A DNA stretch of 64,000 nucleotides, taken from contig JAMLHW010000002.1 in NCBI GenBank assembly GCA_023954475.1, forward strand, positions 372,001 through 436,000. Direction: 5' to 3'. Positions within the stretch are counted from its first letter, which is position 1; every line of letters begins with the position of its first letter. The translations under genes and the position numbers were made by a program. The stretch is from Anaerolineae bacterium (GTDB lineage: Bacteria > Chloroflexota > Anaerolineae > Promineifilales > Promineifilaceae). A model generated the notes under the pieces. The model saw only the letters and a program-made list of their open reading frames with translations, was not told where the DNA came from and searched no databases. This document shows, one piece after another, positions 43,672-46,762 of the stretch.

Positions 43672-44310
43672 ATGAAACGCTACTTGTTGTTTGATTCCGG
43701 CTGTAGTCTATGTACGCAACTCGCACGTGACATTGAGTTCGAGAGCGATGGGTGGCTAGAGGCAAAAAGTCTACGCGATCCAGAGATACTGGCATTGGTG
43801 AAGACAGCACGACCTGATTGGCAGTGGCAGCCAACATTGCTGGAAATTGAGGAGGACGTAGTTACTGTGTCTACGGGTATTCAATTGAAAGCGAGAATCG
43901 TAAAGGGGGTTGGTATCCGACGTGCCTGGCGAATAGCCGAATTGATCACTAAGGCGACTCCCAACCCAGGACATACCCTCTACCAAGAACGGCGAAACTT
44001 CTTACGCCAAAGTAGTGCACTGTTGGTGACAATTCCTCTATTGAGATCACCTGCCCTCGTGCGCACTCTGTTTTCAACTGGTCCAGGTGGAATGGCTTAT
44101 CAAGACTATCGTGATTCTGATTTCGGTTTCACACTGCAATACCCAACAAGCTGGAAGATAGATGTAAAACACAGACAACTTTATCCTTGGAAGGATGACG
44201 AAGCAATTCTGAAAAGAGTGATCTTTTCTGGCACTCCTGCTTTAGTACTCTGTAACAAAAGAAGCCTAGCTTTTTCGTCTGGTGCAAACGCTACTCATAG
44301 CAAAAGCTAG
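43672..44310 (+). pseudogene. 5' part of a DCC1-like / PsbP-like / CHAP protein, interrupted by an insertion
   Basis: The first 190 or so residues are original: a DCC1-like thiol domain (MKRYLLFDSGCSLCTQLARDIE, D-x2-C-x2-C), a twin-arginine-like segment RRNFLRQSSALLVTIPLLRS near residue 118, and a PsbP-like start (DFGFTLQYPTSWKID). After LVL at 44245 the frame enters a 92-base insertion and ends early. Removing bases 44246-44342 joins TPALV directly to YLDVWSSRGKTLHDW of the following fragment in frame, giving a 438-residue protein. So this is one gene split by an element, not two genes. Confidence 0.8.
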
Positions 44311-44337
44311 GTTTCTGAAAACTTACGTTACACAGTA
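44246..44337. mobile_element. 92-bp MITE-like insertion with 5-bp target duplication
   Basis: Bounded by TACTCTGTAAC on the left and GTTACACAGTA on the right (inverted repeats, 10 of 11 match). It carries an internal near-palindrome CCTAGCTTTT ... AAAAGCTAGG and is flanked by the direct repeat TTTAG at 44241-44245 and 44338-44342. It has no coding capacity. Deleting it with one TTTAG copy restores the host reading frame exactly. The transposase family is not identifiable; a parental element would have to exist elsewhere in the genome. Confidence 0.8.
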
Positions 44338-45085
44338 TTTAGTGTATCTCGATGTATGGTCAAGTCGGGGAAAAACATTGCATGACTGGCTGGGATGGTA
44401 CAAAACCAGCCGTGAAGTGACAGACATGCCAATTGATTCGAATGCTACCGTTGCCAGTATGCCAGCAATGATTTTCCTACAAAATCAGCAGCGTGATTTG
44501 CTGATCACGTACTTTAGCGATGAAAAGTATGTTTATCGCCTAATGAATTGGGCGACAGGCGAAAAAGCGCATGTTGATGCTTACTGGCATATGCTCGAAT
44601 CCTATACACCACCTGATGTGAGTGGCAAAGTTGTAACCGTACTGCCACAATCGATGATACAAGAGACTAATCTATGGGCAACTTCGAAAGCGGTTCGGAT
44701 CGCCAACTGCTGTAGTTATTACGATAGTGGCAATCCCTTTCCCTGTTGCACTAACCAAGGCAACTGCACCTGCTGGTGCTACTATAAATACGGCTATGTT
44801 CCGTTTACAGGTAACGCAGAAACGTGGTGGGGTCAGGTACCGGACTATCCCGAGTGGAACAGATCAACAAGTGGGCCTTCATGCCTAGCCAGCATTGCGT
44901 GTTGGAGTGGGAGTCCCGGTCATGTAGCATATGCTGCGTACTGGTCAGGGACCGGAAATGTAGGTATTTCAGAGATGTCTTGGTGTGCGAATTGCGGGAG
45001 CAGCAGATCGATATCTCCCTCTAATCCCAGCCAGGGATGGATATTCAAAGGGTCTGGCCCTTGCCCAGGGGGCGTGCAGGTATAG
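44282..45085 (+). pseudogene. 3' part of the split DCC1/CHAP protein
   Basis: The genuine coding part starts at about 44342 (VYLDVWSSRGKTLHDW). A PsbP-like segment (QNQQRDLLITYFSDEKYVYRLMNWATGEKAHVDAYWHMLESY) is followed by a CHAP-type amidase/peptidase domain: CTCWCYYKYGYVPFTGNAETWWGQ with the likely catalytic cysteine, SPGHVAYAAYW with the histidine, and ISEMSW with the acidic residue. Cysteines are abundant (NCCSYYDSGNPFPCCTNQGNCTCWC). The ATG at 44282 lies inside the insertion, so it is not an original start. Whether a truncated CHAP protein is still made is unknown. Confidence 0.78.
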
Positions 45086-45100
45086 TGCAGAATAGAAGCC

Positions 45101-46762
45101 ATGAACTTCTTCAACACAGCAATTGACCGCTGCGCGTTGATGCTAGCAGTCATAATTGCACTCACTTTATTGCTCGGGTGTGACAGCCGAGGAAGCAGTG
45201 AATCGGATGGCGTCGCAGCGCTTACGACTGTAACAGTCGCTAGCCCACAGGAAACAGCCATACCGAGTGCCACTCCCGGCGGCCTTACATCTGGGCCACT
45301 GCCGACTGCCACCGCGCCGATACCGCCGCCGACGGTCCCGGCTACGCCAACGGCGACGTCGTCGGCTCTGGTACTCCCCGAACCGCTACCAGGCTGGCAA
45401 TGGCGCGAAAGAGATGAGCCGTTTCTGTATGCCTTTATGCTGCCCCACTCCTGGGAATCGGTAACGGAGTCCTCACAACAATTTTACCGTTCAACAGAAA
45501 CGACGACCCGTATCTTTGTCGAGATAGTCCCGCGCTGGCGCGTAGGAGAGGATCACTGGGAGAGTTGGCTCTACGACAATCAGCAACAGGTACTGCTCAC
45601 GTCCGATTTGTCACGAACTGAAATTCACGCCAATGCAATGATTGCCGGACATCCGGCTTATCTACATGTCGATCAGTCGCCGGGCAACTATCTGGCCACC
45701 ATTATCGCGCCGACCGGCGGTCGTTTGCTACGGTTACGGTTACATAATCCGGAACAAGAACCGGAAAAACAGATTTTTCGGACGATGGCGGAAACGATGG
45801 TGTTGAGCAATGGGCCGGCGGAAACAGGTTCTTTGCCGCCAGACTGGGAAATCAACCTGGAATTCTCAAAATGGCCGGCCCCCTACGCTTATGCGGAGGG
45901 CGACGAAACGGAGTTACAGGAGATAGTGGGGCAAATCGCTGTCGTAGAACTGGCTTTCAATGGCACTGTCGAACAGTTCACATTGGTCGATGACAATGGC
46001 GCAGTGTACACGATAATTCGTCCCCCATTTAGCGTATTTTTGGGAACGAGTACATTGTCGCCAACCCCACTGCGCAATGATGCACTAGCAGAGGGGGCAC
46101 GGGTGCAGATTGTCGGCCGACCGACAACGACTGGTGAAATTGTGGCCGATTACATCGTCCCGCTCGGAGATGGTCAGCTACAAAGGGCGTTACAAACCTA
46201 CTTCGATCTCAGGGAAAATGCACCAGAGCCGGCCTTATTGACGTATTATGTGGAAGGCGAACCCGTCGACTTGTGGCTGCGCGGGACGGCAAACCAACTA
46301 CTGCCGTATCTACTCGACGAGCAGGGGAATGCAATTGACAAAGAGTTATTGCCCGGTAATGCTGACGAGGCCTTATTGGCCGGCGGTGTATTGCAGAATG
46401 TCGACCCGCCACGCATTGTGTTGAGCCGACTATACGCGTTGCACGGGCAATGCCGTGTCGATGAAGAGCAGGTTGAGCGCTGCCAGTACTATCAACCGGT
46501 TTTGCCGCCAGTCACACCGACACGGACGATTACGGCCACTGTGCAGTCTGCTGTCGTCGAGATGAATACCATTATCCTAGAGCAACCGGTTGAGGGGTTT
46601 GTGACGATCGCCCTAAAAGAAGGCAGACAACTGCTTGCAACCGATAATACACCCCTCGATCTCGCTGACCTGGCCCCCGGTACACAAATAACGGCAACGG
46701 GCGTGATGGGCGAGGCAGGGGCTTTGCTGGCCGAATTTGTGCGCGTGGTTTCGGCCGATTAA
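45101..46762 (+). CDS. Lipoprotein with PsbP-like region, function unknown
   Basis: 553-residue exported protein. Signal peptide with lipobox TLLLGCDSRG gives a lipidated cysteine near residue 27. Residues 40-95 are a Pro/Thr/Ala-rich linker (PTATAPIPPPTVPATPTATSS); residues 100-215 resemble a PsbP-like fold (FLYAFMLPHSWESV, AMIAGHPAYLHV); the remainder contains small beta domains (GARVQIVGRPTTTGEIVADYIVPL, EGFVTIALKEGRQLLATDNTPLDL). It follows the CHAP gene by 15 bases and so is probably in the same operon. I assign no function. Confidence 0.75.
   Translation: MNFFNTAIDRCALMLAVIIALTLLLGCDSRGSSESDGVAALTTVTVASPQETAIPSATPGGLTSGPLPTATAPIPPPTVPATPTATSSALVLPEPLPGWQWRERDEPFLYAFMLPHSWESVTESSQQFYRSTETTTRIFVEIVPRWRVGEDHWESWLYDNQQQVLLTSDLSRTEIHANAMIAGHPAYLHVDQSPGNYLATIIAPTGGRLLRLRLHNPEQEPEKQIFRTMAETMVLSNGPAETGSLPPDWEINLEFSKWPAPYAYAEGDETELQEIVGQIAVVELAFNGTVEQFTLVDDNGAVYTIIRPPFSVFLGTSTLSPTPLRNDALAEGARVQIVGRPTTTGEIVADYIVPLGDGQLQRALQTYFDLRENAPEPALLTYYVEGEPVDLWLRGTANQLLPYLLDEQGNAIDKELLPGNADEALLAGGVLQNVDPPRIVLSRLYALHGQCRVDEEQVERCQYYQPVLPPVTPTRTITATVQSAVVEMNTIILEQPVEGFVTIALKEGRQLLATDNTPLDLADLAPGTQITATGVMGEAGALLAEFVRVVSAD

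Follow-up and report, generated by a model that had tools for sequence, protein, structure and literature searches.

A CHAP-domain gene in the genome of this Anaerolineae bacterium is encoded in two parts that are separated by a short repeated sequence. The locus raises two questions, namely what divided the gene and which enzyme was responsible. The window, i.e., the whole 64,000-nucleotide stretch of DNA that was analyzed, contains a 92-bp MITE (a non-autonomous mobile element) at the break (Table 1). We are rather confident, from sequence comparison, that insertion of this MITE split the gene and that the mover was most likely a branch of the IS630 family that produces 5-bp, and sometimes 4-bp, target duplications. 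The earlier note on this DNA left the mobilizing family unnamed, and the probable mover is new here.

Table 1. Features of the interrupted locus (window positions) and IS630-type elements of the same genome that share the ends of the MITE (contig positions).
Feature	Location	Strand	Details
MITE, 92 bp	44246..44337	+	34 genome matches; stem structure
Left terminal inverted repeat	44246..44256	+	TACTCTGTAAC; common to MITE copies and three IS630-type elements of the genome
Right terminal inverted repeat	44327..44337	-	GTTACACAGTA on + strand; 10/11 positions complementary to left end
Target duplication TTTAG (5 bp), left copy	44241..44245	.	same as 44338-44342; copies elsewhere carry 5-bp repeats of their own
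Target duplication TTTAG (5 bp), right copy	44338..44342	.	same as 44241-44245
Inner stem	44260..44316	+	15-nt arms, 44260-44274 and 44302-44316, 93% complementary
5′ part of split gene	43672..44245	+	N-terminal domain, CxxC motif near start; aligned with L146; no Pfam family above cut-off
3′ part of split gene	44343..45085	+	CHAP domain, PF05257, E 5.9e-6, above cut-off; aligned with L146
IS630-type element, 1246 bp	C20:133439-134684		flanks CTGAG/CTGAG, exact 5-bp duplication
IS630-type element, 1247 bp	C1:296589-297835		flanks CTAAG/TTAAA
IS630-type element, 2494 bp	C2:135825-138318		other DNA inserted; flanks CTTAG/ATTAG

The feature is a MITE in that it is short, geneless, and keeps only the ends that a transposase recognizes. 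It has no coding capacity, it is bounded by terminal inverted repeats, and its ends are shared with an autonomous type of element, represented here by three IS630-type copies that have the same left end and are all decayed. Folding of the MITE strand yields -14.9 kcal/mol versus -8.0 kcal/mol for shuffled sequences (z -3.1), with none of 200 shuffles folding as well. The inverted termini, inner palindrome, and TTTAG on both sides that the earlier note described for a 92-bp element were all borne out at 44241-44342. The same is true of its claim that deletion restores the frame, since removal of the MITE plus one TTTAG (97 bases) leaves 438 codons and a stop.

Recurrence of the MITE in its own genome (5.12 Mb in 26 contigs) is far beyond chance. 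The 34 distinct places that match it include near-complete copies with 89–98% identity, the best of the other copies reaching an E value of 4e-38, and its exact left end occurs 28 times as opposed to twice for a reversed control pattern. The copies are many and dispersed, with target duplications of their own. For instance, an exact 5-bp repeat flanks 14 of the 25 copies in which both ends could be recognized, and four more show a one-base mismatch, whereas shuffled pairing of left and right flanks gives an expectation of 1.0 exact repeats (maximum 6 in 10,000). The 14 exact repeats have T at position 2 in 13 cases and A at position 4 in every case; exact repeats are also seen at two further copies, L032 (CTGAA) and L037 (CTAAT). 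The earlier note held that the lack of any other copy in the lineage would speak against transposition, and a search of the genome disposed of that concern. A search of 58 further genomes, drawn from the same family, order or class and including no genus-mate, gave no match, so among the genomes compared the expansion is limited to this one.

Some copies adjoin other elements. A tandem pair of MITEs (L010:324-520, i.e., C8:33923-34119) has CTTAG between its members and CTAG outside on both sides. At another locus (L044:821-3421, i.e., C2:135820-138420), five bases separate an IS630-type copy from a MITE copy in the order CTTAG-IS-ATTAG-MITE-CTTAG, as if the second element had entered the duplication left by the first.

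The split gene had been described in the earlier note as a DCC1-CHAP gene, a name of which only the second half is supported. The CHAP domain scores 27.1 bits against PF05257 (cut-off 26) and 31.2 bits in the unbroken homologue L146. A DCC1-like thiol-disulfide oxidoreductase label for the N-terminal part lacks Pfam support, since that part matched no DCC1-like model at E values up to 5 and only its CxxC motif is visible. Relatives of the gene occur in 5 of 52 genomes of the family, its own genome not counted. Apart from the insertion, the gene contains no stop or frameshift; because the frame is otherwise intact, the insertion was presumably fairly recent. Two side observations concern the gene and its surroundings. 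Window positions 43990-44080 encode an internal RRNFLRQSS followed by hydrophobic residues, which resembles a Tat signal; the corresponding stretch of L146 is RREFLQQGS. The gene downstream (window 45101-46762) has relatives of 29% identity at L146:3201-4190 and L147:2827-3840, and the pair looks conserved, since these relatives sit just downstream of CHAP homologues in two related genomes.

Outside the MITEs, exact copies of the left end are confined to three longer IS630-type elements and one probable chance site. The latter (C13:37558), located at the end of a gene, was rejected as an element because the match there is probably due to chance. The three elements encode helix-turn-helix (HTH) and DDE_3 parts (DDE_3 E 1e-20) that NCBIfam assigns to IS630; three DDE parts score 101.9, 142.7 and 133.5 bits against the IS630 transposase model NF033545, for which the cut-off is 100. 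All three are broken by frameshifts, stops or an insertion, although the break in C1:296589-297835 may be either a true frameshift or a sequencing error, and no intact copy of their transposase was found in the genome. Likeness between MITE and IS does not extend beyond the terminal repeat, with about 12 bases at the left end (11 exact) and fewer at the right, and the interior of the MITE shows no visible derivation from the IS. Two more distant IS630 copies (C2:171513 and C22:232139) were rejected as the mover, since their ends are not shared with the MITE.

Relatives of the probable mover are widespread. A scan of one genome per species across 84,980 species recovered 80 loci, from Chloroflexota, Latescibacterota, Acidobacteriota, Bacteroidota, Cyanobacteriota and Verrucomicrobiota. 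When IS ends were placed by the terminal consensus, blind to any duplication, exact 5-bp repeats were found at 31 of 58 IS relatives, compared with a mean of 2.1 and a maximum of 9 after shuffling. These 31 repeats follow the consensus NTNAN: all of them have A at position 4, and all but one (30) have T at position 2. Of the lengths from 2 to 7 bp, five showed an excess (30 of 53, a count in which five coordinates that were off by a few bases were scored as failures), while two and three showed none. In four Chloroflexota copies, the repeat is 4 bp long instead (GTAG twice, CTAA and ATAA). The roughly one-half of IS copies without an exact repeat can be attributed to mutation, rearrangement or wrong end placement. 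Thus, in place of the 2-bp TA duplication of the IS630 family, the clade has 5-bp NTNAN, and the lineage of the probable mover is IS630-type by its transposase and non-canonical in its target duplication.

In the relatives, ORF A and ORF B occupy different frames, and seven or eight consecutive A residues and then a C mark the point where the two join; this arrangement suggests -1 frameshifting there. One Latescibacterota chromosome (OY282377.1; L082-L135) carries >20 near-identical IS copies, many with perfect 5-bp repeats, and for these reasons the IS looks recently active there.

More distant IS630 relatives provide context for the duplications. Among plasmid-borne relatives (26-49% identical), 14 have CTAG on both sides; as this sequence is palindromic, the outgroup data alone cannot tell a TA from a CTAG duplication. 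Two IS630-type elements on plasmids of Deinococcus sp. NW-56 (L170 and L171) have ends that start with TACAGCG and 4-bp flanking repeats, GTAG and CTAG, and a haloarchaeal element (L159) is flanked by CTAC. In phylogenetic trees, the 5-bp group spans at least five phyla and forms one clade (support 99/97), which after rows were added has support of 100/96 and also takes in L168, a row without a called duplication. The Deinococcus pair is the sister of this clade (support 93/81). The predicted DDE domain (mean pLDDT 77) has an RNase H-like core. Against this model, Mos1 mariner aligned over 178-200 residues (Z 11.5-11.9), i.e., with a mariner-like core, and retroviral integrase cores reached Z values of up to 12.7 over about 130-146 residues only. 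A phmmer search of PDB sequences gave no match. The fold comparison thus supports a predicted RNase H-like DDE core and alone does not decide the family.

Could the two ORFs instead be naturally separate genes, with the repeat an old intergenic element? Each part of the split gene has kept an open frame, and the MITE itself supplies a stop for the first part and, for the second, a GTG that might serve as its start, as such a reading would have it. Contrary to it, the uninterrupted homologue that the earlier note proposed to seek exists in a family-level relative: the G060 protein is encoded in one frame of 445 codons, is 43% identical over 403 residues, and aligns without a gap at the junction. 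The G021 homologue likewise spans the junction, so homologues are not all two genes. In addition, 197 of 198 codons are open across the window's reconstructed empty site, more than at any other MITE copy tested (the next has 170); most other copies are probably intergenic. Naturally separate genes are therefore extremely improbable. Taken together, the copies with their own duplications and the unbroken homologue support, at the level of sequence, the earlier note's reading of the split gene as the result of transposition.

Two further alternatives accept a mobile element and differ as to its target or its enzyme. The duplication might be the classical TA, with the 5-bp repeats being part of the element or due to chance, as TA begins and ends these elements and is the duplication reported for IS630 elements (PMC2170065). 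However, the five flanking bases vary between copies yet agree within a copy, the match is abolished by left/right shuffling, and the excess of repeats falls at length five as opposed to two or three. At the window, moreover, the right TTTAG is followed by TG, so there is no TA beyond the repeat, and we regard the TA reading as very improbable. A different transposase family that makes 5-bp duplications might also move the MITE, its end match with the IS630-type elements being coincidental. The restriction of MITE-IS similarity to the terminal repeat and the decay of every IS copy in the genome lend this some weight, but coincidence would have to account for 11 exact bases at the ends, for an NTNAN target pattern common to both, for the exact 5-bp repeat, also NTNAN, at one IS copy in the genome (C20), and for the fact that almost all exact end matches outside MITEs are IS630-type elements. 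Such a mover is unlikely.

If insertion by the IS630 branch is accepted, the probable course of events would be as follows. A transposase encoded elsewhere would have mobilized the MITE in trans and attached its 3′ ends to the two strands of the CHAP-domain gene at TTTAG, with the points of joining staggered by five bases. Filling of the resulting gaps would have produced the two TTTAG copies, and the 97 added bases would have shifted the frame and split the gene, presumably with loss of its function. The enzyme was most likely of the IS630 branch, with its HTH and DDE_3 parts in two frames joined at the A7-A8-C run, perhaps by a programmed frameshift. This branch would recognize ends of the type TACWCYGTAA and NTNAN targets, with a stagger of five, and sometimes four, base pairs.

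As an event, the insertion of a MITE and the disruption of a gene are ordinary; less ordinary is an IS630 lineage whose duplications are 5 bp, or sometimes 4 bp, long. One possible history, to which we assign an even chance, is that a widespread IS630-type clade and its MITEs first moved to a 4-bp stagger (NTAN, seen in the sister Deinococcus elements) and later to a 5-bp one (NTNAN), with the T..A core kept. If true, the Tc1/mariner group would hold a natural series in which the evolution of strand-transfer spacing could be followed. The occurrence of a 5-bp clade in several phyla beside CTAG-targeting relatives and a 4-bp sister also provides matched transposases in which the determinants of target spacing could be sought. 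On a practical level, annotation tools built around TA duplications can put the ends of these IS elements and their MITEs in the wrong place.

Comparable systems are known. RUP and Correia-type repeats are IS630-derived bacterial MITEs that are short, palindromic, present in many copies, and mobilized by an IS630-type transposase acting in trans; their known duplications are TA, as opposed to 5 bp here. For IS630 itself, no description of a 5-bp duplication was found in the open-access literature searched, an absence that is weak evidence. IS630 and ISY100 duplicate TA, IS630 within CTAG, and a 2-bp stagger is described for Tc1/mariner and IS630 elements (PMC2170065). The branch described here shares with the IS630 family (ITm group) an HTH plus DDE_3 transposase, the NF033545 model, a length of about 1.2 kb, short inverted ends, and retention of the target T and A, but differs from the TA-duplicating published members in its 5-bp NTNAN, sometimes 4-bp, duplication. 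Departures from TA occur elsewhere in the ITm group, as Fot elements have the duplications TAA and TAAA, although Fot and Fot-like elements belong to the pogo family, separate from IS630, and their duplications are 3-4 bp (PMC7386202). Another published parallel is ISHsp2 of Halomonas, an IS630 member termed distinct by its authors, which resembles the branch in its two ORFs, probable -1 frameshift, and duplication longer than TA, and differs in a 4-bp TTAA duplication known from one captured insertion and in 26-bp ends with 10 mismatches (PMC3606827). Since one published IS630 member thus makes 4-bp repeats, the 5-bp branch extends a known deviation.
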